DNA of 64,000 nt. It comes from Thalassospira lucentensis. GTDB lineage: Bacteria > Pseudomonadota > Alphaproteobacteria > Rhodospirillales > Thalassospiraceae. The notes beneath the pieces were generated by a model. It was not told where the DNA came from and ran no database searches. It saw only the letters and a list, made by a program, of their open reading frames with translations. The translations under genes were made by a program, and so were the position numbers. The stretch lies in the NCBI RefSeq assembly GCF_001613805.1, contig NZ_LPVY01000007.1:1-64000 (forward strand), written 5' to 3'. Shown in pieces: positions 1,163 to 30,551 of this stretch. Within the stretch, counting starts at the first letter, position 1; every line of letters starts with the position of its first letter.

Positions 1163-2407
1163 TCAGTTTGCCGGTGGATTGGCGAACATGCTTTCGTCAT
1201 GGCGCAAAAGGCTTTGGCCGATTGCACCCTGCAATGCCAGATCCTTGTCCCACGGCAAGTGGATGATCTTGGGCCCGTTACGCAGTTCCGGCACCTGTGC
1301 CTCGCGAAGGCCACGTTCGATTTCGGGTTCCATCAGATCATAGGCACGTGCGCCGGAACCGGTAATCAGGATGCGTTCCGGTCCCAGAAGGGCGATCAGA
1401 TTGGCAATGCCATATCCCAGTACCTTTCCGGCGTGGCGGAACAGATCGGCAAGGTCGTCGTGGCCGTCACGCGCCCGTCTGACCAGATCCATCATCTGTT
1501 TTTCACTGGGATGCAGACTGTTGGGATCGGGCAGGTCAATAAGGCCGCTGGCATCACGCAAAATGGCGTAATCCCCGATATAGGCTTCAATACAACCGCG
1601 TCGCCCGCAATTGCAAAGCGGCCCGTCGGGCTGGTATTTCATATGGCCAAATTCGGCGGCCGCGCCAAAATGCCCGTTATAGACCGCCCCGTTCAGGACA
1701 AGCCCCATACCCACGCCATATCCCAGCATGATCACGGCAAAATCGCCATTGCCGCCAAGATCGTTATTCTGGGTAATTGCGGTCGCAATACAGTTGGCAT
1801 CGTTTGACATCTGGACAATCCCGCCAAAGCGTTCGCGTAACGGTTTGGTAATCGCGATGTGACGATTGCGAAGGGCCGGTGACCAGATAATTTCGCCGCT
1901 GTTGCTGTCGGCGACACCCTGTATGGCGATGCCGATCCCGATGGGCGGGTTTGGCGCGATATCGCGGTTATCGGCAATGAACTGATCAATCAGATCGCAA
2001 AGTGTCGTCACCAGCGATGTTTCATCAAGATCGCGGGTATTGATGCTGTGCTGGATGCTGCGTTCAATCTCCCCCTTGAAATTGCCCAACGCGATTTCAA
2101 CAAGATTGATGGTCAGTTTGACACCAATCACACTGGCTGCAGAGGGAACGAGATCAAGCAGAACCTTGGGGCGGCCGCGTGTAGCACTTTGGCCGCCATT
2201 GCCATTCGTGCCGTTTGGTGTGCCCTGGGTTTCCTTGACCAGCCCCTGTGCAATCAGATCGGCGGTCAGCGAGGTAACTGTTGCCGGGCTTAATCCGGTG
2301 GCATTACCAATATCGATCCGTGCGGCCGGGCCATGGATACGCAGAAAGCGCAGAATGGCAATCTGGGACGGTTGGCGCGGAGTATCGTGATCGGTTCGAC
2401 GGCTCAT
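1163..2407 (-). CDS. ROK-family transcriptional regulator (xylose locus)
   Basis: 414 aa, the usual length of ROK repressors of the NagC/Mlc/XylR type. The N-terminal ~60 residues form a winged HTH (ATGLSPATVTSLTADLI). The ROK sugar-binding fold follows, with the zinc-binding motif C-N-C-G-R-R-G-C at residues 265-272 and the glycine-rich GYGIANLIALLGPERILITG region near the C-terminus. It is the last gene downstream of the xylF-xylH-ATPase-xylX series on the same strand, so it most likely senses xylose or a derivative and represses the locus. The effector is not visible from sequence. An AT-rich inverted repeat in the xylF/xylB intergenic region is a candidate operator. Confidence 0.9.
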   Translation of the reverse strand: MSRRTDHDTPRQPSQIAILRFLRIHGPAARIDIGNATGLSPATVTSLTADLIAQGLVKETQGTPNGTNGNGGQSATRGRPKVLLDLVPSAASVIGVKLTINLVEIALGNFKGEIERSIQHSINTRDLDETSLVTTLCDLIDQFIADNRDIAPNPPIGIGIAIQGVADSNSGEIIWSPALRNRHIAITKPLRERFGGIVQMSNDANCIATAITQNNDLGGNGDFAVIMLGYGVGMGLVLNGAVYNGHFGAAAEFGHMKYQPDGPLCNCGRRGCIEAYIGDYAILRDASGLIDLPDPNSLHPSEKQMMDLVRRARDGHDDLADLFRHAGKVLGYGIANLIALLGPERILITGSGARAYDLMEPEIERGLREAQVPELRNGPKIIHLPWDKDLALQGAIGQSLLRHDESMFANPPAN

Positions 2408-2512: not shown

Positions 2513-3694
2513 TTAAAGCAATCCGCGCGCGGCCAGATTGGTCATCAACGCCGTGATGCCAAAGGTCCAGGGCGCAATTGCGTCTGACCGGTCGACCTGA
2601 TTGCAAAGTGTGCCAAGGCAAGGGGTCGAAATGGTGACAAGGTCGCCCATTTCATGGGTAAAGCCCTTGCCTTTGCCGCCACGATCATCGGTGGGCGCAA
2701 ACATCGTGCCCAGAAACAGCATGAAGCCATCCGGATATTGATGATGTTTGCCGCATGCCTGTGCGGCGAGGCTTTCGGGTGAGCGACTGATCTGGCTCAT
2801 GGAGGAGCCAGCATCAAGGTGATAGCCATCCTGTCCGTCGACCGCCATTTTAAGATCGGCCTGCTTGACGGTTTCAAGCGTGAAATTACCATCAAAAATG
2901 CGGATGAACGGTCCGATGGCGCAGGAGCCGTTATTGTCCTTTGCCTTGCCCAGAAGCAATGCTGAGCGGCCTTCGATGTCGCGCAGGTTGACATCGTTGC
3001 CAAGGGTCGCACCGATGATTTTGCCCTTTGAGCTGACGGCGAGAACAACTTCGGGTTCCGGGTTGTTCCAGTTTGAAATCGGATGCAGGCCAACATGCGC
3101 GCCATGACCGACGGCGGACATTGGCGGGGATTTGGTAAAGATTTCCGCATCCGGGCCAATGCCGACTTCAAGATATTGCGACCATGCGCCTTTGCCGATC
3201 AGGACTTCCTTGATGTCCGCGGCCTTTTTCGATCCCGGTTCGATCTGTGACAGGTCATCGCCGATGATGCCGGTGATTTCGGTGCGGATCAGGTCGGCCT
3301 TGCTGGCGTCGCCGCGCGCCTGTTCTTCGATCACACGTTCCAGAAGGCTTGCGACAAAGGTGACACCGCTGGCCTTGATCGCCTGAAGGTCATTGGGGCT
3401 GAGCAGATGCAAGGTTTGCGATCCTGCACCGGGCCTGGATGCGGCAACAATGTCATCCAGGGTGCCGACCAGCGGGAAACCCGACGGGTTACGAAGCTGC
3501 GATACCAAGTCCTCGCGTTCGAGAAGCTGGCTGATCGTCGGGGCCAGTTTGCTGATATCGCGAAGGTTTCCCTGATCGACAACGGCCGGGGTCGGGCCGG
3601 AAACGCGTGGATCCCAGACGCGACCAACCAAGATGGCATTGCCATGATCGTCGGGCAGAATATCGCGGGCGGTATTCGGAAAGTCGATAGTCAT
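2513..3694 (-). CDS. xylX: 2-keto-3-deoxy-D-xylonate dehydratase (FAH family)
   Basis: 393 aa. It is recognised by close similarity in length and sequence to Caulobacter XylX, which dehydrates 2-dehydro-3-deoxy-D-pentonate to alpha-ketoglutarate semialdehyde in the Weimberg pathway. Shared blocks include [64 protein letters not shown] and [14 protein letters not shown]. The FAH-fold metal ligands are expected at E213, E215 and D234. The start codon overlaps the stop of the upstream ATPase gene by 4 bp, which indicates translational coupling within the transporter operon. The product acts in the cytosol and feeds the semialdehyde dehydrogenase at the window edge. Confidence 0.93.
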
Positions 3695-4509
3695 TCGGGA
3701 GCCTCTTTGTTCGGGGCGTTGGTGGCACCCGGCCCGGCCAGATGCATAAGATGTTCGGGCATTTTACCCAGAATGATCATGCCCAGAACATCGTCATGGG
3801 TGACATCCTTGGTCGGGACGGTGCCGACCAGCTTGCCGTTCTTCATAACATGCAAACGATCAGACAAATCAAACACATCATGAAGATCGTGACTGATCAA
3901 CAAAATACCGAGCCCGTCACGTTTAAGCTGGGCAATCAGTTCGCCGACCATGCGGGTTTCATGCACGCCAAGTGCCGCGCAGGGTTCATCCATGATCAGG
4001 ACGCGGGCTTCGAACAAAAGCGCGCGCGCAATCGCGACCGATTGGCGTTGCCCGCCCGAAAGGGCCGAAACCGGTGATGTGAATTTATGGAAATTCGGAT
4101 TCAGGCGATGCAGGACTTCGCGGGCCTTGTGTTCCATCGCCGCATCATCCAGAAAGCCTAGCCTGTCGACGATTTCACGACCCAGAAACAGGTTCTGTGC
4201 GGCGTCGAGATTGTCGGCAAGGGCCAGGTTCTGATAGATGGTTTCGATATTGTTGTCACGGGCATCGCGCGCATTTTCAATTTTGGCTTCACGACCATCG
4301 ACGATGATCTGGCCTGTATCGGCCTTATATGCGCCCGAAAGCACCTTGATCAGGGTTGATTTGCCTGCACCATTATGGCCAAGCACGCCAACCACTTCGC
4401 CGGGATAAAGATCGATGGAAACCCCGTCGACCGCCTTGACCCCGCCAAAGCTGATATGAATGTCGCGCATTTCGACCAGCGGGTTTTGACCGGTTTTGAT
4501 ATCGTTCAT
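3691..4509 (-). CDS. Sugar ABC transporter ATP-binding protein, single domain
   Basis: 272 aa with one ATPase domain: Walker [10 protein letters not shown] at 44-52, signature LSGGQRQSV near 150-158, Walker B LIMDEP at 171-176. CUT2-family sugar ATPases such as XylG and RbsA are normally fused tandem domains of ~500 aa, so this is the half-length FrcA-like kind, expected to work as a homodimer. The usual DEPTAALGV is DEPCAALGV here. It lies between xylH and xylX in one minus-strand operon and overlaps xylX by 4 bp. Its role is to power xylose (or related pentose) uptake. Confidence 0.93.
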
Positions 4510-4521
4510 ATCCCTATGCTC

Positions 4522-5787
4522 CTAGCTGGTCGGGTCGCTATAGCGACGGTGGAAATATTTGTCGCTGAACACGGCAAGGACAAGCACAAGGCCGATGACG
4601 ATGCTTTGCAGCGATGTATCAACGCCTAGAAGCGCCATACCGCTTTGCAGGCTTTGCATCACTAGGGCGCCAATCAGCGCACCGTAAATGGTGCCAACAC
4701 CGCCCGCCAGCGACGTGCCGCCAATCACAACCGCAGCAATCACGCGCAATTCGTCAAGCGTGCCAAGATCGTTGCCCGCCGATTGCAGGCGTGCCGATGA
4801 AATCGCCGCACTGATCGCGCACAGGACACCCATCAGGGCAAAGACCGCAACCGTCATGCGTTTGACATTGATCCCGGCCAGTTCGGCTGCTTGTGGGTTG
4901 CCGCCCATGGCAAAGACATAGCGCCCGAACCGGGTGCGTTTGGCAACGATGGTCAGCACGATGGCGACCAGTGCCACAATCAGAAGCGGGATCGGAATGC
5001 CGTGCGAAATCAAAAGGTTTTCCGCCGTTACCGGAATGCCGCGATCCTCAAGAATACGTTCGGCGGCGCGTTCGGGCAGGTGATAGGCATTTAGCGTGAT
5101 GATCGCCACCAGAACCAGCCCGGCCTTGATCAGTGTATTGGTATATTCCGCCCAGATCGGTTTGACCGGGAACTGGAAGGAAAGCCTGCGGCGGCGTTCC
5201 ATGATCGCGGCATAGATGATCGCGACAATCGCAATCGCGGCCACGATCCAGCTCCATGTGGCGCCAATCGTGCCTTCGATCCCGCCGCCAAGCAGCATGA
5301 AATTATGATCGAGCGGGGCAACGGTACGCCCCTGTGTCACCCACCAAGCCGCCCCGCGCCAGACCAGGAGCCCGCCCAGGGTTACGATAAAGGCCGGAAC
5401 GCCAAGATAACCAACGGCAAGCCCCTGAACGCCACCAATTGCAGCCCCGACGACCAAGCCGACAAGCAGGGTGATGATCCAGGTCACCGGATGATTGTAT
5501 TCAAGAAATTGCGGCAGGAAGTCGGTTTGCACCACACCCATGATCATCGCCAGAACCCCCAGCACCGCACCGACCGAAAGATCGATATGGCGGGTGACGA
5601 TAATCAGGACCATCCCGCAGGCCATCACGGCAACAGAGGCGGTCTGGACTGACAGGTTAAAGATGTTTCGCGGGGTGATGAAGCGGCCACCGGAGGCAAC
5701 ATCAAAGCCGATCCAGATAACCAGAAGCACAACGGCGAGCCCCACAAGGCGGCGGTCGACTTCCATCTTGGCAAGTAGTCTTGTCAT
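4522..5787 (-). CDS. xylH: Xylose-type ABC transporter permease
   Basis: 421 aa CUT2-family inner-membrane permease. It has about ten hydrophobic segments, the conserved block IIVTRHIDLSVGAVLG near residues 63-78, and the GGVQGLAVGYLGVPAFIVTLGG region. The hydrophilic insertion around residues 195-215 and the total length fit XylH rather than the shorter RbsC. It is preceded by xylF (with a GC-rich hairpin between) and followed 12 bp later by the single-domain ATPase. It forms the channel of the pentose importer. Confidence 0.92.
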   Translation of the reverse strand: MTRLLAKMEVDRRLVGLAVVLLVIWIGFDVASGGRFITPRNIFNLSVQTASVAVMACGMVLIIVTRHIDLSVGAVLGVLAMIMGVVQTDFLPQFLEYNHPVTWIITLLVGLVVGAAIGGVQGLAVGYLGVPAFIVTLGGLLVWRGAAWWVTQGRTVAPLDHNFMLLGGGIEGTIGATWSWIVAAIAIVAIIYAAIMERRRRLSFQFPVKPIWAEYTNTLIKAGLVLVAIITLNAYHLPERAAERILEDRGIPVTAENLLISHGIPIPLLIVALVAIVLTIVAKRTRFGRYVFAMGGNPQAAELAGINVKRMTVAVFALMGVLCAISAAISSARLQSAGNDLGTLDELRVIAAVVIGGTSLAGGVGTIYGALIGALVMQSLQSGMALLGVDTSLQSIVIGLVLVLAVFSDKYFHRRYSDPTS

Positions 5788-5871: not shown

Positions 5872-6903
5872 CTAGTTACAGGCAGCGACCTTGCCGCTTT
5901 CAACCCCTTTGCAGACGACGTCTTTCGATACCCAGCCTGCATCAATCACAAGATCAAGCTTGTTCTGGGTTATCGCCACCGGATCAAGGAAGTAGGATTT
6001 CATGGTGACGCCGTTCGGGCTGTTCCAGTCTTGGGTGCCTTCGACATCACCAAGTTTTGCACCTTTTGCCAGCTCAACCGCGATTTCGGCTGCGCGCTGT
6101 CCCAGAAGGCGGGCATCTTTCCAGACCGAAACCGTCTGAGTGCCAAGAGCAACACGGTTAAGTGCGGCGTGATCCCCATCCTGACCGGAAACCGGGATGC
6201 CCTGCATGCCCTGTGCCGAAAGGGCGGCAACAACACCGCCAGCAGTGCCATCGTTCGAGGCGACAACGGCATCAACCTTGTTATCGGCAGCCGTCAGGAA
6301 CTGTTCCATGTTGCGCTGGGCGATGGCGGGCTGCCAGCTATCGGTATAGGCTTCGCCGACGACCTTGATGTCGCCGCTATCAATTGCGGCCTGAAGGATT
6401 TCAAGCTGGCCTTCATGCAGGATATTGGCGTTCGGGTCGGTCGGTGCGCCCTTGATAAAGACGTAATTGCCTTTCGGCTGTTCGCCAAACACGGCTTCGG
6501 CCTGCAGACGGCCGACTTCCTTGTTGTTGAACGTAATGTAATAGGCGTTCGGGTCTTCGATCAGGCGGTCATAACCAACCACCGGAATGCCTTCATTGAT
6601 CGCCTGCGTAACCGCAGCGCCGATCGATGATGAATCCTGTGCGAGAACGATCAATGCGTCTGCACCACGTGAAATCAGGCTTTCGATATCGGAAAGCTGT
6701 TTGGACGGCGAGCTTTGAGCATCTGCGCTGATATATTCTGCGCCGGCTGCTTCCAGTGCCTTCACAATGGCGGCTTCGTCGGTTTTCCAGCGTTCTTCCT
6801 GGAAGTTCGACCAGCTGACGCCAACGATCAGATCGTCAGCAAAGGCATTGGCGGAAAACAGCACGGCACCGGCCAGTGCGACCGAGGAGAGGAGTTTTTT
6901 CAT
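5872..6903 (-). CDS. xylF: D-xylose periplasmic binding protein
   Basis: 343 aa from the ATG that follows a GGGAAG ribosome-binding site; an upstream in-frame ATG at 6942 would spoil the signal peptide. Residues 1-22 (MKKLLSSVALAGAVLFSANAFA) are a Sec signal peptide. The mature protein shows the XylF pattern: a W-x(3)-ERW-x-KD-like start (NFQEERWKTDEAA), DIESLISRGADALIVLAQDS, GYDRLIEDPNAYYITFNNKEVG, DAVVASNDGTAGGVVAALSAQG and SGQDGDHAALNRVALGTQT. It captures xylose in the periplasm for the XylH/ATPase importer. It is the first gene of the minus-strand operon and is divergent from xylB. Confidence 0.94.
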   Translation of the reverse strand: MKKLLSSVALAGAVLFSANAFADDLIVGVSWSNFQEERWKTDEAAIVKALEAAGAEYISADAQSSPSKQLSDIESLISRGADALIVLAQDSSSIGAAVTQAINEGIPVVGYDRLIEDPNAYYITFNNKEVGRLQAEAVFGEQPKGNYVFIKGAPTDPNANILHEGQLEILQAAIDSGDIKVVGEAYTDSWQPAIAQRNMEQFLTAADNKVDAVVASNDGTAGGVVAALSAQGMQGIPVSGQDGDHAALNRVALGTQTVSVWKDARLLGQRAAEIAVELAKGAKLGDVEGTQDWNSPNGVTMKSYFLDPVAITQNKLDLVIDAGWVSKDVVCKGVESGKVAACN

Positions 6904-6995
6904 CTGTTTCTTCCCTGAATGATATGTGTCTTGCAGTGACATTTATTTTTGTTGTCGAAAAAATGTTGACGCCTTCGATCCGTCCTGTCAAATTT

Positions 6996-7017: not shown

Positions 7018-7147
7018 TCTCGCTTTTCAGGCTCAAACCCATCATTGAACCGCATGTTTAGTTGATTCTATGTGGATTTGAGTTGGTGCAGCGCAGCATT
7101 TAATTTGATATCGAAAAATAAAAGATGAAAACAAGTCAGGGAACGTC

Positions 7148-7909
7148 ATGACAGCGAGTTATCACGACATAGACGGCAAATCGGTTCTTGTAACCGGTGG
7201 TGCGTCGGGCATTGGCGCTTCTATCGTCCGGGCCTTTTGTGCGCAGGGTGCGCGGGTCGGCTTTTTTGATATTGATGATGCGGCGGCGGCAAAACTGTGT
7301 GCCGAAATCGAACGCGATCTGGATGTTCGTCCGTACTACATGTCACTTGATCTGCGCGATCAGGCCCGAATTCCCAAGGCCATTACCGAAATGGCATCGA
7401 AAATCGGAGTGATTGATGTGCTGGTCAATAATGCCGCGCGTGATGATCGCCACAGCCCCGAAGAAACCGGGCCGGATGAATGGCGTGATAAGCTTGATGT
7501 CAATCTGTCACACCAGTTTTTCTGTTCGCGTGCCGTGGCAAAGGGCATGGCCGAGAAGGGCCGGGGCAGCATCATTAATTTCAGTTCGGTAAGTTATTTG
7601 ATGGGGCTGCCCGATCTGGTCGGTTATGAAACGGCCAAAGCCGGTGTGGTTGGCATGACGCGCGCACTGGCGCGTGATTGGGGTGCGGATGGTATCCGGG
7701 TCAATACGGTCATTCCGGGCTGTATCATTACCCAGCGACAGCTTGACCTTTGGATCAGCCCGGAAGATGAAGAGCGCATTCAGTCCGAACAATGCATCAA
7801 GCGTCGACTTGTCGGGGATGATGTTGCACAGATGGTGCTTTTCCTCGCATCTGACGTGTCATCGGCATGTTCGTCACAAAGCTTTATCGTCGACGGCGGA
7901 CTTGTCTGA
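7148..7909 (+). CDS. xylB: D-xylose 1-dehydrogenase (SDR family)
   Basis: 253 aa classical short-chain dehydrogenase: cofactor motif TGGASGIG at 16-23, NNA at 95-97, catalytic N119, a Ser near 147, Y160 and K164. It shares with Caulobacter XylB the distinctive DDRH after NNA, the FCSRAVAKGM region, YETAKAG and an IVDGG-like end. The expected reaction is NAD-dependent oxidation of D-xylose to D-xylonolactone, the first Weimberg step. It is divergent from the xylose importer and 80 bp upstream of the XylD-like dehydratase. Substrate specificity is inferred from homology and context; L-arabinose cannot be excluded. Confidence 0.88.
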   Translation: MTASYHDIDGKSVLVTGGASGIGASIVRAFCAQGARVGFFDIDDAAAAKLCAEIERDLDVRPYYMSLDLRDQARIPKAITEMASKIGVIDVLVNNAARDDRHSPEETGPDEWRDKLDVNLSHQFFCSRAVAKGMAEKGRGSIINFSSVSYLMGLPDLVGYETAKAGVVGMTRALARDWGADGIRVNTVIPGCIITQRQLDLWISPEDEERIQSEQCIKRRLVGDDVAQMVLFLASDVSSACSSQSFIVDGGLV

Positions 7910-7989
7910 TAGTCTGCCCAAAACGAAGTAACGTTACGCCATAATCGCCAGTATTCCGCAGCCCCGATATCCCGCAGTCAGAGACGATC

Positions 7990-10158
7990 ATGCCCCACCA
8001 ATCCCGATCCATCCCCAATGCCATCACCATTGATGAAAAAGCCAATCCCTATCGCGACTGTATTCAGGGGTTGGCCAATCAGCCGATTACGGTTGTCCGT
8101 CTTTTGCGTGATGCGGTGAATGAAAACCCGGTTGTTGCCAGTGACCGGAAATTTGCGGTGCCCGAAATCCGTGATGTGGTCGGGCGGCTGGTGGAAAACC
8201 GGCCACGCATTGCGATTATCGGCGGCGCACCGGATCATCCTGCGCATTTGCTTGATCGGCCACAGGCCTTGATGGCGGCCATTCGTATCTGGGAAATGGG
8301 CGGGGTGCCGTTCCTGTTTCATGTACCGGTAATCTGCGATGGCACGGCGCAAAACAATATCGGCCAAAGTTATTCGCTTGCGTCACGCAACCATACGGCG
8401 GCCGCCGTGAACATTACCTTTGAAGGCCACAGTTATCATGCGGCCTATGTGATTGCCGGGTGCGACAAATCACCCGCCGCCGTTGTGGCCGGTTTGGCGG
8501 CGGCCGATCAGGCGCGGAAATATCGCGGTGATCAGGCCCCGGTTTGGGCGGTATTTGCCCCGTCCCACGTGCTGAAGGGTGGCGAAATTCCCGACGGCAC
8601 CCGTCGATTGCTTGATAAAATTGCTGATGATGCGGATCATGCCGGGCATGATGACCTCGGCGGCGATATTCGTGAAAACATGCGCTATATCCTGCAATGC
8701 ACATCGGATGAAGCCTTTGCCGGGTTGCTGGATCGTGCGCGGTTGCTAGGCATTATCGATGGCAAGATGGAACGCCGGGTTCTTGACGAGCTTGCCGGGG
8801 CGACCTGTGATTCCAAGGGGGGAATTTGCGCCTTTAACGGTACAGGTAATTCATCGCGGACGATGCTGGCAGCCTTTGGCCTGACGCCGCCGGAACTGGA
8901 GTTGCTGACCGATGTGCCGCCCTATGCGGCAGTGGCGGCCGGGATTGATGCGCTGTTTGGGGTGTTTAACAAGCCCGAATATGCGATCAGCAATCTGTTG
9001 AAACGCAACTTTGCCAATTTCGTCCGCATTCACAATGCCACGGGGTCAAGCAGCAACATGCTGCTGCATTTGCCATTCATGATGCGCTATGCCGGGTTTG
9101 ATGTGACGATTGATGATTATCAGGATGTGCGTCTTAAAACGCCGGTGCCGGAAATCTTCGCCCATAGTCTGACCGAAAACCGCGATACCTTTGTTCTGGC
9201 GCAGCAAATGGCCGAAGGCAAAAACCGCGGCATGGAAAGCATCTATCGCATTCTGGCCGATCTTGGTGTGGCGATGGATCTTGATGCGCCGACGGTTCTT
9301 GGCAAGACGTGGGGGGAAAGGATTGCAAATCTTGAAAACCCCGTTGATCTGTCGCTGGGGGATAAATCGGTTATCCGGGCAACACCGGTGCGCAAGCGGT
9401 CCGGTGTTGACGTTCTGACCGGCAGTTTCTTTGATAATTGTGCGGTCAAGACATCTGGTATGAGCGACCATCTGATCGAACATTTCGACGATCACGTTTT
9501 CATCGTGCGTTATTACGAAAACGAGCATGTCTGCAATGCTGATTTTGCGTCGCCCGATCTGGTGACGCGTTTGATTGAAACTGATGGTGTGGACGAAGAC
9601 CTGATTGCTGCCGTGGTCCGGCGCAATGGCGGCAACCGGGTTGATATGGATGCGCCCAAGGACATGCTGGCACAGGGGCATTTGTCCTTTGCCTTTGTCA
9701 TTGGTGGGCAGGGGCCGGAAGCCTACGGCATGCCGGAAATGTTTTCACCGTCCCAGAACCTGCGCCATCATCGCATCCTTGAAGCATCCAGTATGCTGAT
9801 TACCGATGGCCGTTATTCCGGCGTGACCAAGGGGGCCTGCATCGGCCATATGGTCCCGGAAGCATTTTCTGGTGGCGGCATCGGTCATTTGCGCGATGGC
9901 GATGTGCTGCGCCTTGATCTGACGAAAAATACGCTTGACTGGCTGGATCGTGACGCGTTCCTTGCCGGGACCGAAACCGCCGGAAGCCCGATTGATCTGG
10001 CGGATCGTGCACCGTTATTTGCCGAACGGCAAAAACGCATGATCGCCCGTCAATACGATATCGCGGCCAGCAACGTGATGGATCATGTATCGAACGCGGC
10101 ACGCGGAATTGTGCCCGGTGTGGTGGACCGCCGTGCGGTCAATCCGTGGCGAAACTGA
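7990..10158 (+). CDS. Divergent IlvD/Edd-family dehydratase in the xylonate dehydratase position
   Basis: 722 aa, considerably longer than typical XylD/IlvD enzymes (~560-600 aa) and longer than YjhG (~655 aa). The three iron-sulfur cysteines of the family are present: C116 (CDGTAQNN), C158 (GCDKSPAAVV) and C280 (GICAFNGTGNSSRTM). A further Cys occurs at ~272. About 122 residues separate the second and third Cys, some 50 more than usual, so there is an insertion around residues 180-250. The C-terminal half keeps TDGRYSGVTKGACIGHMVPEA. It is probably the sugar-acid (xylonate) dehydratase that follows XylB, acting in the cytosol with a [2Fe-2S] or [4Fe-4S] cluster. The 80-bp gap after xylB holds no terminator. 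Confidence 0.82.
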   Translation: MPHQSRSIPNAITIDEKANPYRDCIQGLANQPITVVRLLRDAVNENPVVASDRKFAVPEIRDVVGRLVENRPRIAIIGGAPDHPAHLLDRPQALMAAIRIWEMGGVPFLFHVPVICDGTAQNNIGQSYSLASRNHTAAAVNITFEGHSYHAAYVIAGCDKSPAAVVAGLAAADQARKYRGDQAPVWAVFAPSHVLKGGEIPDGTRRLLDKIADDADHAGHDDLGGDIRENMRYILQCTSDEAFAGLLDRARLLGIIDGKMERRVLDELAGATCDSKGGICAFNGTGNSSRTMLAAFGLTPPELELLTDVPPYAAVAAGIDALFGVFNKPEYAISNLLKRNFANFVRIHNATGSSSNMLLHLPFMMRYAGFDVTIDDYQDVRLKTPVPEIFAHSLTENRDTFVLAQQMAEGKNRGMESIYRILADLGVAMDLDAPTVLGKTWGERIANLENPVDLSLGDKSVIRATPVRKRSGVDVLTGSFFDNCAVKTSGMSDHLIEHFDDHVFIVRYYENEHVCNADFASPDLVTRLIETDGVDEDLIAAVVRRNGGNRVDMDAPKDMLAQGHLSFAFVIGGQGPEAYGMPEMFSPSQNLRHHRILEASSMLITDGRYSGVTKGACIGHMVPEAFSGGGIGHLRDGDVLRLDLTKNTLDWLDRDAFLAGTETAGSPIDLADRAPLFAERQKRMIARQYDIAASNVMDHVSNAARGIVPGVVDRRAVNPWRN

Positions 10159-10331: not shown

Positions 10332-11768
10332 TCAGGCGGCTGAAGTATCCGGTGCCGGGCTGGTTTGGGCATTGGCTGGGGTGGCGTCGCCGCCCAGTGC
10401 CTGATAGAGCGTGATCAGATTTGTAATGCGATCAAGCTGGTTGGCCAGAACGGATTCTTCGGCTGTGCGTCTGGTTTCCTGCGCGTCCAGCCAATCCTGC
10501 ATGGCGACTGCCCCTGATCGGAAACGGGTTTCATAAATCCGTTCGGCATTTCGTGCGGCGTCAAGCGCGGCTTCAAGCCGGGCTGCACGACGATCATACT
10601 GTGTGCGGGCCGAAAGAGCGTTTTCAACGTCGCTCATGGCTTCGTAGGCTGTCTGACGGAATTCAGCGACAGCCTGTTCATATTCGGCCTCGGATACCTT
10701 GATGTTGAGCTGCCCCTCGTTCCAGTTCAGGAACGGCAGGGCAAGGCTTGCGCCCAGCGTGCCGATTGGATTTTGCAAGAGGTTGCGCAACTGATCGCTG
10801 CTGGTGCCCAGATCGCCTGTCAGGGTCAGGGTTGGCAGCAAGCTGGTTTTGACCGAATTCAAATCCGAAACGCTTTCCTTCAGGCGCAATTCCGCCGCCC
10901 GAACATCGGGCCGGCGCGACAGCAATTCGGATGGTAATCCAGCGGCCACATCGGGCAGGGCATCTGATGGCAATGTTGCGCGCGGGATTGCAATATCGCC
11001 CGGTGGGCGGTCAAACAGGATCGATAGGGCGTTTTTGGTTTCAGTCAGACTTTGTTCGATCTGGGTATAATCGGCCAACTGGCTTTCAAGGTTCTGGCGG
11101 GCTTCGAACAGTTCCAGCGATGATGTCGAACCGGACGCATACTGAACATCCACCAGATCAAGGGTTTGCTGAGCATAATCGATGCTGGCCTGTGCAATAT
11201 CTAGTCGTTGCTGATAATAGACAGCCTGCCAATAAAGGGTGGCGGTGGTGCCGATCAGCGATAGTGCCGTGCTTTCACGATCTTCAAGGGTCGCCAGTGC
11301 TTCCCAGCGGGCGGCGTCGTAATCATGGCCAAGCTTGCCCCAAAGATCGAGTTCGTAACTGATTCCGGCATTGGTGCCAAAGCTTCGCGTGCTGCCGTTA
11401 TCCTCGTCCAGATCGCGCGAAACCGACGCATCCGCACCACCGGAAAAATCTGGATACAGGTCATCTTCGGCGAGGCCCGCAGTCAGTTGTGCCTTGCGAA
11501 CCTTGATGGTGGCGGCAGCGAGATCGTTATTGCGTTCAAGTGCTCGGGCGATAAGTGCGTCAAGCTGGTCATCGCCGAAATTTTGCCACCAGTCTTGCGT
11601 GGCGGCGATGTCGGATGCGCGGCTGTTGTCCGATGTGGTGGCAGATCCGTTCCAACTGTTTTCCGCCGCAATATCCGGACGGGAATATCGGGTTTCGGTC
11701 AGGCTGCTGCATCCTGCGAGTGCAATCATAGACAGGATGGTCCCGGTTTTTAAAATCCGTGTGATCAT
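10332..11768 (-). CDS. Outer-membrane efflux lipoprotein (NodT/OprM type)
   Basis: 478 aa from the ATG 8 nt after a GGAG site; a TTG at 11786 overlaps the macB stop and is less likely. The N-terminus is a lipoprotein signal with lipobox LAGC (Cys20). The body is the repeated TolC-like structure, with the paired ARLEAALDAARNAERIYETRFRSGAVAMQDWLDAQ and QTLDLVDVQYASGSTSSLELFEA blocks and an RRPDVRAAELRL motif, typical of RND-type outer membrane factors. It is the exit duct of the tripartite MacAB-like pump encoded immediately upstream on the same strand. Confidence 0.92.
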   Translation of the reverse strand: MITRILKTGTILSMIALAGCSSLTETRYSRPDIAAENSWNGSATTSDNSRASDIAATQDWWQNFGDDQLDALIARALERNNDLAAATIKVRKAQLTAGLAEDDLYPDFSGGADASVSRDLDEDNGSTRSFGTNAGISYELDLWGKLGHDYDAARWEALATLEDRESTALSLIGTTATLYWQAVYYQQRLDIAQASIDYAQQTLDLVDVQYASGSTSSLELFEARQNLESQLADYTQIEQSLTETKNALSILFDRPPGDIAIPRATLPSDALPDVAAGLPSELLSRRPDVRAAELRLKESVSDLNSVKTSLLPTLTLTGDLGTSSDQLRNLLQNPIGTLGASLALPFLNWNEGQLNIKVSEAEYEQAVAEFRQTAYEAMSDVENALSARTQYDRRAARLEAALDAARNAERIYETRFRSGAVAMQDWLDAQETRRTAEESVLANQLDRITNLITLYQALGGDATPANAQTSPAPDTSAA

Positions 11769-11782
11769 TTTTGTATTCTCCG

Positions 11783-13765
11783 TCAATCGCGCGACAGGGC
11801 GTCGACCGGATCAAGCCGGGCGGCATTGCGGGCAGGCAGAAAGCCGAATGAAATTCCGATCAATGTGGCGCAGGCAAAAGCCGCGACAATCGAGGTTGTC
11901 GAATAGACCATTGAAAACGAGCTTCCCATCGCATCGAACAGAACCCCGATGCCAAGGGCTGTCAGAACGCCAAGCGCCCCGCCAAGGATACAGACCAGAA
12001 CCGCCTCGATCAGGAATTGTCGAAGAATGTCGCTTTGACGTGCGCCGACCGCCATCCGTACCCCGATTTCACCGGTGCGTTCGGTAACCGACACCAGCAT
12101 GATATTCATCACGCCAATGCCACCAACAATCAGGGAAATCACAGCAATCGACGAAATCAGAAGCGTCATGGTGCTGGTGGTCTTTTCGATGGTTTCACGG
12201 ATGGTGTCGGTATTGATCGTGAAAAAGTCTTTCACGCCGTGTCGCCGGGTCAGAAGGGTTTCGATGTTCTGTTGCGCCAATGCGGTTTGGACTGCGTCAT
12301 CAATACGGACGGTGATGCTGCTTAGGTAATTCTGGCCGAGAATTCGGGTCAGTGCGGTGGTGTAGGGAACCCAGATGTTCAGGCTGTCATTATTGCCAAA
12401 GGTGCTGTCCTTTGGCGCGGTAACACCAATGATGCGTACCGGGACAGTGCCAAGGAAAATCACCTGCCCCAGCGGGTCTTCGCCATTGGGAAACAGCTTT
12501 TCGCGCGTATTGTCGTCAATGACCGCATCCTGGCTGCGTTTGTCGACGGCAAGGCTGTTAAACCAGATGCCATCGGCCATTTCATAGCCGCGCACCCGAT
12601 AATAATCGGTGCCGACACCGGCAACAGTGGCATCCACTTCAATATTGCCATACCGCAGGGTGACGGTGCTTGAAACACGGGGGGTGACGCTGTCGACATA
12701 GTACTGGGTCGACAGCACATCGGCATCGGCCGCAGTCAATGTCCTGATCTGACTGGCATCGCGATCACCAAAATCCTTGCCGCGATTGACATCAATCGTA
12801 TTGGTCGCGATTGAACTGATATCGGCAAGGATGCGATCCTGCGATCCTTGGCCAAGGGCTACGACCGACACCACCGATGCGATCCCGATAATGATGCCCA
12901 GCATCGTCAGAAAGGTCCGCAACCGGTGAGCATTCATTGCCACCAGCGCCATTTTGAATGCCTCGGTAAACCGGTCGATTTCGGCCCGAATGCGTGATGA
13001 CCGATGGGTATGGTTTTCGACCTTTTTACGGGGACCGGATTGTATGAAGGCCTGCGTCTGGCGTTCATCACGGATGATTTCGCCGTCACGGATTTCAATG
13101 ATGCGTTCGGCATGGGCGGCAACATCATGATCATGGGTGACCAGAATGACCGTATGGCCATCGCGATGCAGGTTGCGCAGCAGTTCAAGCGTCTGTGCAC
13201 CGCTTTGGCTATCGAGTGCACCGGTTGGTTCATCGGCCAGAATGACGTCGCCGCCATTCATCAGGGCGCGCGCAATACTGACACGTTGCTGCTGCCCGCC
13301 GGAAAGCTGGCTGGGGCGGTGATGAATGCGGTCGCCAAGCCCGACACGGGTCAAGATATCCATTGCCCGGTCACGCCGTGTTTCGGCATCAAACCCGGCA
13401 TAGATCGACGGGACTTCGACATTGCCAAGCGCGCTTAAATCCGACAGCAGATGATAGCGCTGAAAGATAAAGCCGAAATATTCGCGCCGAAGGGCGGCCA
13501 GTTCATCGGGTTCCAGATTGCCTGTCAGGCGGCCATTAACCCGGTATTCCCCACCAGTCGGTCGATCAAGACAGCCCAGAATATTCATCAGGGTCGATTT
13601 ACCCGACCCGGAAGCGCCAATGATCGCAACCATCTCGCCGCGTTCAATCGTCAGATTGACGCCCTTTAGGACGGCAATGCGATCTTCGCCCGCCGGATAG
13701 TGACGCCACAGATCGCGGATTTCGATCAGCGGGGTTTTGTATGTATTGCTCCCTATCTGGTTCAT
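11783..13765 (-). CDS. MacB-type ABC exporter (ATPase-permease fusion)
   Basis: 660 aa. The N-terminal ATPase has Walker [10 protein letters not shown] at 50-58, signature LSGGQQQRV at 154-162 and [11 protein letters not shown] at 176-186. It is followed by a membrane segment at ~275-300, a ~220-residue periplasmic MacB_PCD domain and a C-terminal FtsX permease domain with three membrane segments ([31 protein letters not shown]-like block). This is the MacB architecture: a mechanotransmitting exporter of macrolides, lipopeptides or siderophores working with an adaptor and an outer-membrane factor, which are the flanking genes. The substrate is unknown. Confidence 0.94.
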
Positions 13766-13767
13766 GA

Positions 13768-14952
13768 TCAGAACATCCCCCCCGGGCCACGACGTATGGA
13801 TTGGCTGGTGGCGACCACACCGCTGGTCGCGCCGATAACAATGTCGTCATTTTCGGAAATGCCACTGATGATCTGCGCGTTGATATTGGTGTTCATGCCG
13901 ACCGTGACCGGCTTTTCAATCGTGTCACCTTTGTCGTTAAGAACCTGAACGGTATATAGCCCGTCCTTGTCCGGACCACTCAGCGCGGCGGACGGAATGA
14001 TCAACGCATTTTCAACTTCGTTTAGTGTTATGGTGACTTCGGCTGTCATCCAGACGCGCAGGCGGTGATCCGGATTGGCGATGTCAAACAGACCATTGTA
14101 ATAAACGGCTTCGTCATCGGTATTGTCGTCGTCATCCTCGATTCCGGTCGGGGCGGGTTCGATGGCGCGAAGGGTGCTTTCATAGCGCGTGTCGGGATCG
14201 CCCAGAATGGTGAAGCTGACCGGTTGGCCTTCACGAACGCGGATGACGTCGGCCTCGGATATTTCGGCCTCGACCGTCATGGTGTCGAGCTGTGCGAGTT
14301 TTATGATGGTCGGCGTGGATTGGGCGGCGTTCACGGTCTGCCCTTCCTTGACTGGCAGGGCAACAACCGTACCATCCATGGGGGCCAGGATTTTGGTATA
14401 TCCCAGATCAATCTCGGCGGTATCAACGGCGATTTTTGCCTGATCGATTTGCGCGTTGAGCGCTGCGATTTCAGCCTTGGTCACATTAAGGGTTGCCTCG
14501 GCACTTTCGAAATCTTCCTGTGGCGAGGCATCAAGCGCACGCATCTTTTTCTGCCGTGCATAATCAAGTTCCGCCTGTTTCAGTTCGGCCTGCTTGGCGG
14601 CAAGCTGTGCCTTGATATTGGCAAGGGCGGCCTCGGCATCGCGCAAATCATTCTGTTGTGTTGATGGATCGATTTCGGCAATCAGATCGCCTTCCTTGAT
14701 TTCATCACCGAGATCGACATGCAGTGCCTTGATCTGCCCGGACACCTGCGCGCCGACACTGACCAGTTTAGAAGCCGTGATGGTGCCACTTGCCAGAACC
14801 GTATCGGCAACCTTGCCGATACGGGGTTTGGTGGTGACATAACCGGTTTTGGCTTCGGACGGGAACAGATAGGCCTGTGCCATCCATCCTGCTGCCAAGA
14901 TGATGATCACGGCGATGACAAGGTTACGTGCGGTTCTGGATGATTTCTTCAT
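13768..14952 (-). CDS. MacA-type periplasmic adaptor (HlyD/RND family)
   Basis: 394 aa, starting at the ATG that gives a short basic N-terminus and one membrane anchor ([21 protein letters not shown]). A longer open frame upstream to 15264 lacks coding character. The order is lipoyl half ([45 protein letters not shown]), a coiled-coil hairpin at ~100-165 rich in Ala, Gln, Lys and Glu, the second lipoyl half ([23 protein letters not shown]), then beta-barrel domains. It links the MacB-like pump to the outer-membrane factor. It is the first gene of the three-gene operon and is 2 bp from macB. Confidence 0.93.
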
Positions 14953-15135
14953 CGGGCTTTCATGTCCTTGGATGAAACGCACCCGACGGCGAAAGGCAAT
15001 TGAGCCATCGGGCATCCCAGACATAGCAACCCCTTTGTCAGAACGGGGTGAGGGGGATGAAAATGATCTGTAAGGAATGTGTAAAGTTCGCCATCCGTGC
15101 CTTTCGTCAGGCGTTTTAAGCGCTAGAATGTCATC

Positions 15136-15150
15136 ATGAACAGGAGTTAA
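15136..15150 (+). other. Five-codon ORF overlapping the response-regulator ribosome-binding site
   Basis: ATG-AAC-AGG-AGT-TAA contains the AGGAG (15142-15146) that also serves the TTG start at 15158. It may be chance, or translation of it could couple to or compete with initiation of the regulator. The 205-bp gap 14953-15157 between macA and the regulator shows no other clear element. Confidence 0.25.
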
Positions 15151-15157
15151 CCCGCAT

Positions 15158-15886
15158 TTGAAAGACCCGGAAACCGTGACCAGAATTCTGCTTGTTGATG
15201 ATGATGTCGAACTCGGCACGATGCTGGGCGAGTATCTTGAAGGTGAGGGGTTCGAGATCGCCAACGCCTATAACGGTAAGGATGGCCTGCGTATGGCGCT
15301 GGATGGCGGGTTTTCCGTTGTGTTGCTTGATATCATGATGCCGGGCATAGGCGGAATTGAAGTACTGCGCGAATTGCGTACCAAAAGCCGGGTGCCGGTG
15401 ATCATGCTGACCGCCAAGGGCGACGATGTCGACCGGGTTGTCGGGCTGGAACTGGGGGCGGATGATTACATACCCAAACCATACTATCCACGCGAGCTGG
15501 TGGCGCGCATTCGCGCGGTTCTGCGCCGGGCCGAACCGGTTGGCGAAAGCCGCCGGGATGCAGGCGGGCCGGACAATGGCGACGAAATCGTTCTTGGCAA
15601 ATTGCGGCTTAATACCGCACGCCGGGTGGCGCAGTTTGATGGTCAAGACATGGAACTGACGGTATCGGAATTCAATCTTCTGGAAGTTCTGATGCGTGCC
15701 AGAGAACGGGCAATGTCAAAAAACGAGCTTTCGATGAAGGTGCTGGGCCGCCCGCGCGAGGTTTATGATCGTTCGATTGATGTCCATATGAGCAACCTTC
15801 GACAGAAGCTTCAATCTGTCAGTAACGATGTTGGCCTGATCGAAACTGTGCGCGGCTTTGGCTATCGTCTGAGGCAGGACATATGA
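15158..15886 (+). CDS. OmpR/CpxR-family response regulator
   Basis: 242 aa with a TTG start 11 nt after AGGAG; GTG at 15176 is an alternative. The receiver domain is complete: acidic pair D14-D16, phospho-acceptor D58 (LLDIMMPG), T85 region (VIMLTAKG) and K107. A C-terminal winged-helix (trans_reg_C) follows from ~145 to 240, ending EVYDRSIDVHMSNLRQKLQ and VRGFGYRL. It overlaps the downstream kinase by 4 bp. It is divergent from the macA-macB efflux operon and is the obvious candidate for controlling it, as CpxR-like systems control envelope-stress pumps. Confidence 0.93.
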   Translation: MKDPETVTRILLVDDDVELGTMLGEYLEGEGFEIANAYNGKDGLRMALDGGFSVVLLDIMMPGIGGIEVLRELRTKSRVPVIMLTAKGDDVDRVVGLELGADDYIPKPYYPRELVARIRAVLRRAEPVGESRRDAGGPDNGDEIVLGKLRLNTARRVAQFDGQDMELTVSEFNLLEVLMRARERAMSKNELSMKVLGRPREVYDRSIDVHMSNLRQKLQSVSNDVGLIETVRGFGYRLRQDI

Positions 15887-17256
15887 GAGGACGGTTATTC
15901 TGGAAAATCCTGATCGGGTTTGCTTTGACCTTCATGGGGATATGGCAGGGCGTGTGGCTTCTTTTTACGTTATATGGTGATCCACCCAAACCCTATCATG
16001 TCGGATATCTGCAGGAAACGGCACGCGGTTATATCGATACTGCTGCAAGAATTATCGAGGCCGAAGGTATTGGTGCGCTTGAGAAGGCGATTGCACACTG
16101 GCCCGACAATGAACGTGTCCGACTAAGTATCGAGCCGGATGCAAACCGCACCGACAGCTCCGTGCGCGGTTCCGTACCTGAAACATTCCCCCCCGTCCGG
16201 TTCGAGGAGATCCGCGAAAACGGGTTTCTGTCACGTGATGCGGTTAGCCCGGTCGGGTTGCTTGTGCATTTGAAGTTTGATGTGACCGATATCGTTGCGT
16301 CTATCCCGGAGCGGGGGCGGTTCAATGTGCCGACCCCGTTGGTGATTGCGGGCGTGCTGGGAGGGTTTGTGTTTAGCGGCGTGCTTGCCTGGTATCTGAC
16401 CCGACCGATCCGCCAGCTTCAGGAAGGGTTCGAGCGACTGTCGACCGGGGATCTGACATGGCGACTGGGCGAAAAGATCGGCCTTAGACGTGACGAGATT
16501 GCTGATCTGGCGCGTGATTTCGATGTGATGGCCGTGCGATTGCAACAATTGATCGAGGCACGCGACCGCCTATTGAACGACGTATCGCATGAACTGCGGT
16601 CCCCGCTGGCGCGGATGCAATTGGCTGTTGGGCTGGCGCGCCAGAAACCGGAACGGATCGAAGGATCACTTGACCGGATTGAAAAGGAAACCATTCGTCT
16701 GGATGAACTGGTTGGTGAACTTCTGACCCTGTCGCGTGCGGAAAGCGGCGCCAGCCAGAACCAGACATGGCTTGATATCGACCATCTGCTGGGCCGTGTT
16801 GTTAGTGATGCCCGGTTTGAGGCCGAGGCGACCGGGATCAAGGTCCAGACAAACCTTGCGATTAAACGCAACTGGCACGGTGAAGTACCGGTGGTGGTCG
16901 GCAACGCCGAACTTCTGCGGCGGGCCTTTGAGAATATAGTGCGTAATGCCCTTCGTCATTCACGCGAAGGTCAACTTGTCCGGATTTCTGCCGAAGCAGA
17001 TGCCAGTCGCAATGTTTTCTGCATCACCATATCCGATCAGGGGCCAGGCATTCCTGCTGAACAGCTTGAAAATATGTTTGAACCATTCATTCGCGGGGAA
17101 CCGGGAATAAACGGCGCCGGTTTCGGACTGGGTTTGTCAATTGCACGGCGTGCGATCAAGGCGCATGGCGGGGAAATTTCCATTCGCAACCGGGATGGCG
17201 GTGGGCTGGATGTTTTAATTACTCTGCCATTTACCTTGCGCGTTGATGACGAATAA
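15883..17256 (+). CDS. Sensor histidine kinase (CpxA/RstB-like)
   Basis: 457 aa: membrane segment at ~8-30, a ~120-residue periplasmic sensor region, second membrane segment at ~150-173, HAMP at ~173-225, then HisKA with phospho-acceptor H236 (NDVSHELRSPLARMQ). The HATPase_c domain has an N-box (FENIVRNALRHS), G1 (DQGPGIPAEQ) and G2 (GAGFGLGLSIARR). ATGA overlap with the response regulator shows coupled translation of the pair. Periplasmic stress signals are likely, given the divergent efflux operon; the ligand is unknown. Confidence 0.93.
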   Translation: MRGRLFWKILIGFALTFMGIWQGVWLLFTLYGDPPKPYHVGYLQETARGYIDTAARIIEAEGIGALEKAIAHWPDNERVRLSIEPDANRTDSSVRGSVPETFPPVRFEEIRENGFLSRDAVSPVGLLVHLKFDVTDIVASIPERGRFNVPTPLVIAGVLGGFVFSGVLAWYLTRPIRQLQEGFERLSTGDLTWRLGEKIGLRRDEIADLARDFDVMAVRLQQLIEARDRLLNDVSHELRSPLARMQLAVGLARQKPERIEGSLDRIEKETIRLDELVGELLTLSRAESGASQNQTWLDIDHLLGRVVSDARFEAEATGIKVQTNLAIKRNWHGEVPVVVGNAELLRRAFENIVRNALRHSREGQLVRISAEADASRNVFCITISDQGPGIPAEQLENMFEPFIRGEPGINGAGFGLGLSIARRAIKAHGGEISIRNRDGGGLDVLITLPFTLRVDDE

Positions 17257-26451: not shown

Positions 26452-27393
<942 letters not shown>

Positions 27394-27403
27394 GCTTGAC
27401 GAC

Positions 27404-27426
27404 CCCGGCAGGTGGCATCTGCCGGG
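27404..27426 (+). terminator. Hairpin after kdgD
   Basis: CCCGGCAG / CTGCCGGG with a 7-nt loop and no proper U-tract. Partial terminator or mRNA-end hairpin. Confidence 0.5.
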
Positions 27427-27488
27427 ATTACCTCTGTGACGCCGCAAAAGTAAATGGCGCGCAAAATTCGGCTGTCAGAAAAACCATT

Positions 27489-27517
27489 ACTTGTTGTTAC
27501 AAGTTACAAGATGTAAG
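27489..27517. promoter_or_regulatory. Candidate operator before the TRAP operon
   Basis: The inverted repeat ACTTGT-4-ACAAGT (27489-27504) adjoins the imperfect palindrome TTACAAGATGTAAG. The motif matches the ACAAG boxes before gntR2 and lies about 80-108 bp upstream of the TRAP binding-protein gene. Confidence 0.5.
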
Positions 27518-27596
27518 CTTTTCTGACAACAACTGGTCCCATCAGGGAAAACAAGACTTTAACGTTGAATGACATAAAGTCACGGGAGGAATATCA

Positions 27597-28589
27597 ATGA
27601 ACAAGTTTATGAAGACCACCACACTGACACTTGCCGCAGCGGCAATGTCGGTCGCCTTTGTCGCCGGTGCGCAAGCACGCGAATGGCGCGGCTGGAACAT
27701 CCATCCGGCAGACTATCCGGTTTCGACCGGGATGGAAGAATTTGCCCGTCTGATCAATGAAAAATCCGGTGGCGACCTTGAAGCCAAGGTTTATCACGGC
27801 GGCGTTCTGGGCGATCAGCCCGATGCCATTCAACAGGTTCGCCTTGGTGGTCTGGACTGGGCTGTTTTCAACCTCGGCCCGCTCGGTGAAGTTGCGCCTG
27901 AAGCAAACGTTGTTTCGCTGCCTTTCATCTTCAAAAACGTCGATGCCATGCATGAAGTCATGGACGGTCCGGCAGGTCAGCAGATTGCAGACGGCCTTGC
28001 CGAAGCAGGTCTTCAGGCTCTTGGCTGGTATGATTCCGGTGCACGATCCTTCTATAACACCAAGCATCCGATCAACACGCCCGAAGATCTCAAAGGTCTT
28101 AAATTCCGCGTGATGAGCAACGATTTGTATGTGCAGATGGTTGCAGCCCTTGGCGGCAACGCAACCCCGATGCCGTATGGCGAAGTTTATCAGTCGTTGA
28201 AAACCGGTGTTATTGATGGCGCGGAAAACAACTATCCGTCCTATGACAGCTCCGGCCATTTTGAAGCTGCCAAATACTATTCGGTGACCCAGCATCTGAT
28301 CCTTCCGGAATGCCTGTGCGTCAACAAGGCGCTTTATGATGGCCTGTCAGATGACGAGAAAAAAATCCTTCAGGAAGCTGCGGATGAGTCGGTGAAGGTT
28401 CAGCGCGCTGCCTGGGCAGAACGTGCAGAAAAGTCCAAAGAGAAAGTTGTTGCAGCCGGTATCGAAGTGAACGAAGTCGCCGACAAGGCAGCGTTCCAGG
28501 ATGCGATGCAGCCTGTATATGACAACTTCATCAAAGCCAATCCGGATCTGGCCGATCTGGTCAAGGCAATTCAGGACGCCCAGAAATAA
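27597..28589 (+). CDS. TRAP transporter substrate-binding protein (DctP family)
   Basis: 330 aa preceded by GGGAGG. Signal peptide to ~residue 27 (ending GAQA). The mature DctP fold shows GWNIHPADYPVSTGMEEFARLINEKSGG, the carboxylate-binding Arg in LKGLKFRVMSNDLY, and GEVYQSLKTGVIDGAENNYPSY. TRAP binding proteins capture organic acids; with uronate dehydrogenase encoded in the same operon, D-galacturonate or D-glucuronate is the likely ligand. A perfect 12-bp-stem hairpin separates it from the membrane genes. Confidence 0.93.
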   Translation: MNKFMKTTTLTLAAAAMSVAFVAGAQAREWRGWNIHPADYPVSTGMEEFARLINEKSGGDLEAKVYHGGVLGDQPDAIQQVRLGGLDWAVFNLGPLGEVAPEANVVSLPFIFKNVDAMHEVMDGPAGQQIADGLAEAGLQALGWYDSGARSFYNTKHPINTPEDLKGLKFRVMSNDLYVQMVAALGGNATPMPYGEVYQSLKTGVIDGAENNYPSYDSSGHFEAAKYYSVTQHLILPECLCVNKALYDGLSDDEKKILQEAADESVKVQRAAWAERAEKSKEKVVAAGIEVNEVADKAAFQDAMQPVYDNFIKANPDLADLVKAIQDAQK

Positions 28590-28603
28590 TTGATCAAGCC
28601 ATA

Positions 28604-28632
28604 GAAGGGCGGCGACATTTTCGCCGCCCTTC
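28604..28632 (+). terminator. Strong hairpin between TRAP binding-protein and DctQ genes
   Basis: GAAGGGCGGCGA / TCGCCGCCCTTC, a perfect 12-bp stem with a 5-nt loop and a short T-run. It probably lets part of transcription stop so that the periplasmic protein outnumbers the permease. Confidence 0.82.
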
Positions 28633-28676
28633 TTTACGCTTGTATCCGGTCTTTTTGTTAATCCATTTCTGGCGGC

Positions 28677-30518: not shown

Positions 30519-30551
30519 TTGCGGACCAAGATGACTTCAAAGAGGAAGACG

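Follow-up and report, generated by a model that had tools for sequence, protein, structure and literature searches.

A distinct long subfamily of IlvD/EDD dehydratases encoded beside D-xylose genes in Thalassospira

RESULTS AND DISCUSSION

The dehydratase gene and its surroundings

The window, a 64,000-nucleotide stretch of Thalassospira lucentensis DNA, encodes an IlvD/EDD-superfamily protein within a group of genes related to D-xylose uptake and oxidation. The protein matched the Pfam domains PF00920 (106.9 bits, cut-off 27) and PF24877 (95.7 bits, cut-off 27.7), and its best sequence match in the PDB was 6ovt (97 bits). The sequence-only reading had described it as oversized at 722 aa, and the open reading frame was confirmed at that length, the 17 reference dehydratases running from 552 to 655 aa. 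The genes of this region are as follows.

1163..2407, minus strand: ROK-family regulator (profile matches)
2513..3694, minus strand: XylX-like FAA-hydrolase-family protein, likely a 2-keto-3-deoxypentonate dehydratase
3691..4509, minus strand: sugar ABC ATP-binding protein (profile matches)
4522..5787, minus strand: sugar ABC permease (profile matches)
5872..6942, minus strand: XylF, D-xylose ABC substrate-binding protein (TIGR02634, 430.7 bits, above the cut-off of 389.55)
7148..7909, plus strand: XylB-like D-xylose 1-dehydrogenase (SDR), 80 bases upstream of the dehydratase (NF053674, 308.2 bits, below the cut-off of 400)
7990..10158, plus strand: IlvD/EDD-superfamily dehydratase of a distinct long subfamily, 722 aa, open reading frame with ATG start

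The role suggested for the XylX-like protein is based on its matches to the FAA-family structure 9kkt (418 bits) and to the 2-keto-3-deoxy-D-arabinonate dehydratase 2q18 (74 bits). At the left edge of the window, positions 1-293 probably hold the last part of an aldehyde dehydrogenase gene, the start of which closes contig C24 of the same genome (locus L063, 14236-14503). The end of that contig carries, ahead of this gene start, a dehydratase paralogue (L003) and a DHDPS gene. In another genome of the genus (L065), a PRK08245-family gene, an aldehyde dehydrogenase, a DHDPS-family protein, and a dehydratase lie beyond the ROK gene, and the first 40 residues of this dehydratase are those of L003. 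The gene order in L065 and the content of the C24 end together suggest that the left end of the window probably continues C24. On the other side, directly downstream of the dehydratase gene (10332-17256), are a MacAB-like exporter with an outer-membrane channel and two further genes; this block seems to be absent from the L065 genome, where its place is taken by a gene whose initial residues resemble those of the window gene at 17364.

Cluster cysteines and catalytic residues

The protein has cysteines at positions 24, 116, 158, 237, 273, 280, 484, 515, and 617, among which C116, C158, and C280 had been named as the family cysteines, with about 122 residues, some 50 more than in XylD/IlvD, between the second and the third. 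Both observations held. The three motifs were kept in all 54 family open reading frame copies (45 different strings; the copies include genes retrieved more than once and alternative starts of one gene), with a first spacing of 42 and a second spacing of 122 in 47 copies and 123 in 7. In our 35-row alignment, the second spacing was 122–123 in 18 of 18 family rows versus 67–73 in 17 of 17 references, making the family longer by 49–56 residues at this place. Since the spacing is kept across all family copies, it is attributable neither to chance nor to a frame error. The positions of the predicted active-site residues are listed below.

8335..8337, plus strand: C116 codon, Cys-Asp-Gly motif, predicted Fe-S ligand
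8461..8469, plus strand: C158-D159-K160 codons, one predicted Fe-S ligand followed by two predicted Mg ligands, with Lys carbamylation assumed by analogy
8827..8829, plus strand: C280 codon, predicted third Fe-S ligand
9736..9738, plus strand: E583 codon, predicted Mg ligand
9817..9819, plus strand: S610 codon, predicted catalytic base, equivalent to Ser490 of CcXyDHT

The first of these cysteines is not of the XylD type. The cysteine corresponding to Cys60 of CcXyDHT is missing, with A85 at the aligned place in both alignments, and no cysteine occurs between residues 24 and 116. The Cys-Asp-Gly motif is assigned to 6-phosphogluconate dehydratases in the accessible text of PMC5770437, and the distance of 42 residues from C116 to C158 is the same in E. 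coli Edd (112-154), with 43 in YjhG. A cysteine at the C116 place is also found in YjhG/YagF and in two of the six IlvD references, and among the eight references of alignment A2 this column contains Asp in two IlvD rows and Gly or Asp in the pentonate rows. The motif, in combination with the Edd-like spacing, indicates that C116, C158, and C280 are the right cluster cysteines, of the Cys-Asp-Gly type. The notion that C116 is a non-family cysteine, the XylD-type one being missing, was considered and rejected on the Cys-Asp-Gly passage and the spacing of 42.

C158, D159, K160, C280, T285, E583, and S610 were identical in the 21 A2 rows compared (13 from the family, 8 references), and so was D117 except for Glu in the two pentonate reference rows. 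In total, 254 of the 722 positions were invariant in the 13 family rows. The predicted catalytic residues are thus intact, and the protein is probably catalytic. Two PROSITE motifs quoted in the accessible text of PMC5770437 were not exactly matched: the passage CDKSPAAVVAG departs from C-D-K-x(2)-P-[GA]-x(3)-[GA] by a proline one place early, and the second motif is mismatched at its first position only (Met), a motif that, according to the same text, CcXyDHT itself does not fully match. These mismatches and the long stem of the subfamily in our trees could suggest a non-catalytic or regulatory relative, which is nevertheless extremely unlikely given the invariance of all predicted catalytic residues in the 13 family rows and the metabolic character of most operon settings. 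Five further cysteines (C24, C237, C273, C515, and C617) were invariant in 13 of 13 family rows, and C237 sits inside the first insert described below.

Two inserts and the structure model

Alignment with the references located two stretches of additional residues.

8593..8760, plus strand: insert 1, residues about 202-257, extra helices at the lid position
9520..9684, plus strand: insert 2, within residues about 511-565, C-terminal domain

Within insert 1, 19 of 56 positions were invariant in the 13 family rows, which is about the average of the protein and suggests that this insert is under constraint. The second insert is an addition to what had been observed from the sequence alone; K487 and G575 are separated by 85–89 residues in the family versus 43–58 in the references, and only 4 of 55 positions (511-565) were invariant in the same 13 rows.

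An AlphaFold model built from 20 rows was used, with a mean pLDDT of 70.9 and a pTM of 0.76 (middling confidence), after an earlier model (17 rows, mean pLDDT of 53.1) had been discarded. In the model, insert 1 forms helices at 202-217, 221-237, and 240-252, which lie between the strand following the Cys-Asp-Lys helix and the third cysteine. The pLDDT was below 50 at 117-129, 234-241, 272-287, and 575-582, among others, and these low values make the model no basis for cluster geometry. The overall fold was that of the superfamily: 25 of 25 PDB matches found by Foldseek at E ≤ 0.001 were IlvD/EDD proteins, and the VIA comparison gave Z scores of 18.0–28.9 for 17 IlvD/EDD entries with the next at 9.6, IlvD/EDD alone exceeding a Z score of 10. 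A viral structure library returned nothing at E ≤ 0.001.

In CcXyDHT, part of the active site is covered by a helix-loop-helix (residues 168-194). So6PGDHT has this element flipped and about 30 Å away, and an open mutant of RlArDHT shows it shifted by 7 Å (all in the accessible text of PMC5770437). Insert 1 is located at this very stretch, so the element that it makes larger is one with known variability and mobility. The possibility that the extra residues are a common family loop had been left open from the sequence; the residues themselves occur in 0 of 17 references, and their place in the model is nonetheless that of the variable lid of the family. Insert 1 is thus an enlarged family element and not a new domain. 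By analogy, it may act as a larger lid over the active site, and the extra helices probably govern substrate access.

Placement within the IlvD/EDD superfamily

Eight NCBIfam models matched the 722-aa protein, all with scores far under their cut-offs.

PRK00911: 181.5 of 644 bits
ilvD TIGR00110: 160.8 of 618.15 bits
YjhG/YagF TIGR03432: 120.2 of 808.15 bits
PRK06131: 114.1 of 539 bits
PRK13017: 102.7 of 684 bits
PRK12448: 91.9 of 710 bits
L-arabinonate dehydratase model: 89.7 of 882 bits
Edd TIGR01196: 86.2 of 708.25 bits

In the 35-row tree, the 18 family rows occupied one side of a single branch (100/100) with a stem of 3.31 changes per column, separate from the pentonate-type, IlvD, Edd, and YjhG rows. 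The family joined YjhG/YagF (99/99), with IlvD, the pentonate type, and Edd on the opposite side. A second tree of 29 rows and 528 well-filled columns, which omitted fam_L009, fam_L060, fam_L049, fam_L055, fam_L058, and ilvD_Natrinema, produced the same grouping with a stem of 2.32 (YjhG, 99/98), accompanied by a long-branch warning. Constraining the family to the pentonate type (five rows) was rejected by the AU test (p 0.009); holding it together with IlvD or with Edd gave p values of 0.013 and 0.063, respectively. These results support the proposal of a separate subfamily made from the sequence, and the 722-aa protein belongs to a distinct subfamily of the IlvD/EDD superfamily.

The nearest clade in both trees, the YjhG/YagF D-xylonate dehydratases (TIGR03432), raises the question of whether the protein is simply a fast-evolving member of that family, in which case the functions would agree. 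Besides the sister position, obtained with only two YjhG-type rows, both groups share the Cys-Asp-Gly motif and an additional cysteine seven residues before the third ligand. In contrast, YjhG/YagF are 655 aa long and lack the lid insert, with a second-to-third cysteine spacing of 71; the identity in A2 is 23% to YjhG and 25% to YagF, and the TIGR03432 score is far from its cut-off. The two stems are long (2.32–3.31 and 1.39–1.85 changes per column), and for the second tree the program warned that these branches meet. Membership in the YjhG/YagF family is therefore rather improbable.

The sugar-acid dehydratases (SADHT) CcXyDHT (5oyn) and RlArDHT (5j84) resemble the 722-aa protein in the likely reaction, the positions of the Mg ligands and Ser base, and the fold, whereas they differ in having the first cysteine elsewhere, Glu (the Glu92-type Mg ligand) in place of D117, a spacing of 73, and a C-terminal His, and the AU test rejected a shared clade. 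The C-terminal histidine of SADHT reaches the active site of the partner subunit, as described in the accessible text of PMC11316719. Our protein ends in WRN, and His is likewise not the last residue in any of the 12 A2 family rows whose C-terminus is complete. The pentonate-type paralogue L003 of the same genome also has no C-terminal His, which indicates that the histidine rule of SADHT is not absolute. Edd (2gp4) shares the spacing of 42 from Cys-Asp-Gly to Cys-Asp-Lys and a lid unlike that of SADHT, and differs in its second-to-third spacing of 67 and the lack of an insert. IlvD (6ovt, 5ze4) provided the best structural and sequence matches, yet it has no insert, and the window genome has a separate ilvD (L001, 1176 bits, cut-off 710). 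The accessible text of PMC9314677 divides the superfamily into SADHT, BCADHT, PADHT, [4Fe-4S] DHADs, and 6PGDHT, and our search of open-access papers found no study of the long subfamily.

Distribution of the subfamily

The subfamily was present in 29 of 29 genomes searched of the family Thalassospiraceae, all of one genus, and copies with 99% identity occurred in named Thalassospira records. At the order level, 44 of 317 genomes contained it, including 15 outside the genus, in seven further genera, one of them a fragment (G604). The class sample (2 of 385 genomes) and the phylum sample (4 of 398) yielded copies within the genus alone. The contig-level genome search, which reaches close relatives alone, returned 22 loci. 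Of the 16 outside-genus matches in the order-level search, 15 were fetched and the G604 fragment was left out. A MAG labeled Accumulibacter carried a 56% relative at a contig end, beside a divergent GntP-type permease. Among 548 plasmid records, one (Thalassospira marina) matched at 80–90% identity and all others were below 60%, the next among the 40 matches listed being at 27.2%. Viral contigs gave no match to the 722-aa protein, YjhG, or L002, and no member of the subfamily was among the listed matches to Edd (1 locus), IlvD (4), or a mixed alignment (5).

Gene neighborhoods and proposed function

The genes for the XylB-like protein, the ABC transporter, and the ROK regulator adjoin the dehydratase in 21 of 21 Thalassospira-type loci (20 from named Thalassospira and one from a Rhodospirillales MAG), and the XylX-like gene adjoins it in 18, being missing in L019, L020, and L022. 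The xylonate-dehydratase position next to xylB, pointed out from the window sequence, is thus a conserved context, and its constancy makes the D-xylonate dehydratase of the Weimberg pathway the best reading. We estimate a probability of about 0.6 that the protein belongs to a distinct IlvD/EDD subfamily, dehydrates sugar acids with the aid of Fe-S and Mg2+, and, in Thalassospira, most likely performs this step.

By analogy with CcXyDHT and RlArDHT, we infer that D117, D159, carbamylated K160, and E583 would hold Mg2+, which would bind the carboxylate end of the substrate, while an Fe-S cluster on C116, C158, and C280, which may be of the [4Fe-4S] or the [2Fe-2S] type, would act as a Lewis acid toward the C3 hydroxyl. 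Removal of the C2 proton by S610 would then produce an enol leading to 2-keto-3-deoxyxylonate, which would be converted to 2-oxoglutarate via the FAA-family neighbor, with the adjoining arabinonate-type locus supplying the aldehyde dehydrogenase. Several findings weigh against the xylonate reading. The window genome has two canonical pentonate-type paralogues, either of which could take xylonate; one is in the adjoining locus, where L003 is an L-arabinonate dehydratase according to NF009559 (1103.7 bits, cut-off 882). Moreover, the XylB-like protein falls below its curated cut-off, and three of the 21 loci have no XylX-like gene beside the dehydratase.

Outside the genus, the setting is different. 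The xylose genes as a set were found in 0 of 15 outside-genus loci, nor were they present in L026. Instead, DgoD adjoins the dehydratase in nine of the 15 (L044-L052; in L044, DgoD scored 655.5 bits with a cut-off of 311), DgoA and DgoK are present in seven of these nine, and TRAP genes in eight, the ninth contig being 4.2 kb. The dgoD and dehydratase genes overlap by seven bases in L044, L045, L048, L049, and L050, according to the codon-usage gene caller on which all start sites and overlaps in relatives rest, as simple calling gave doubtful long open reading frames at high GC. A DgoD-II has been predicted in the accessible text of PMC5507952. In L053, a gene for a nickel-pincer isomerase of group 22 (7035-8318; NF052515, 492 bits) lies 24 bases upstream of the dehydratase; as some LarA relatives epimerize D-gluconate at C2 (accessible text of PMC11770544), this isomerase might feed the dehydratase. 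All three of L056-L058 have an MFS transporter, two have Edd, and dehydrogenase or FGGY-kinase genes also occur, as judged by cluster membership with few copies scanned. Among the scanned neighbors in L054 and L055, no sugar-acid genes were directly beside the dehydratase. Sugar-acid catabolism is thus indicated by 13 of the 15 outside-genus loci, with L053 included by inference. The two loci L054 and L055 are dehydratase copies in one 73%-complete genome (G657) with several neighbors in common, which may be a mixed assembly.

The galactonate operons make a different substrate range plausible. They also raise the less probable, though not negligible, alternative that the protein is a hexonate dehydratase, acting on D-galactonate or a stereoisomer giving the same 2-keto-3-deoxy product. 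In that case the enzyme would predate its xylose setting, and the Thalassospira xylose pathway would have borrowed it or would share it. The adjacency of DgoD in all nine loci, together with the accompanying genes and overlaps, is consistent with this alternative, as is the window genome itself, where a DgoK-DgoA pair (L101, 8485-10109, G000:C13) has no neighboring dehydratase and the DgoD model finds no match. However, the DgoD of those operons is by family already a galactonate dehydratase, which would leave a second such enzyme redundant, and the Thalassospira gene is accompanied in 21 of 21 loci by xylose genes and not by DgoK-DgoA. We retain D-xylonate as the favored substrate in Thalassospira and regard a broader range, or one directed at other hexonates, as a serious rival.

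A broader interpretation, which we offer tentatively and at less than even odds, is that these proteins form an unrecognized class beside SADHT, BCADHT, PADHT, [4Fe-4S] DHAD, and 6PGDHT, in which the cluster is bound at a Cys-Asp-Gly site and a larger helical lid stands in for the C-terminal histidine plug. Within a single bacterial order, the substrate would have shifted between hexonates, as in the dgo operons, and D-xylonate, as in Thalassospira, and a single Thalassospira enzyme may work in the xylose pathway as well as in a galactonate branch that otherwise has no dehydratase (DgoK-DgoA without DgoD). The superfamily is known; the long-subfamily variant is new, real, and conserved. According to the accessible texts of PMC9795676 and PMC11316719, oxidative pentose pathways are rate-limited at the sugar-acid dehydratase step, and a branch with a different lid and cluster site provides a new starting point for enzyme work as well as a test of what sets substrate range. 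As its relatives elsewhere sit in galactonate operons, the protein may represent a new kind of sugar-acid catalyst. One annotation should also be corrected: the Thalassospira marina copy is labeled a dihydroxy-acid dehydratase, which it very probably is not.

The uronate locus of the window

The sequence-only reading had further suggested that the dehydratase might serve an aldarate step missing from the uronate locus of the window. The premise was partly right. The window genome, when searched, contained no GarD/UxaA-type (GD_AH_C) protein and no DgoD-type match, and its two MR_MLE_C proteins are an N-acetyl-D-Glu racemase (DgcA) and enolase rather than sugar-acid dehydratases; an aldarate dehydratase of these known families therefore seems to be absent from the genome. 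This absence and the presence of KdgD about 16 kb downstream (TIGR03249, 426 bits, cut-off 373.95) would be compatible with a glucarate or galactarate dehydratase. We nevertheless consider such a role very unlikely, as nothing was found linking the dehydratase gene to aldarates, the annotated neighbors in the loci of relatives point to aldonates, and the two other IlvD/EDD enzymes of the genome (L002 and L003) are equally free to fill it. The uronate-type locus with KdgD spans 26467-31346 of the window, and an epimerase/dehydratase-family protein encoded in the window could be a uronate dehydrogenase.
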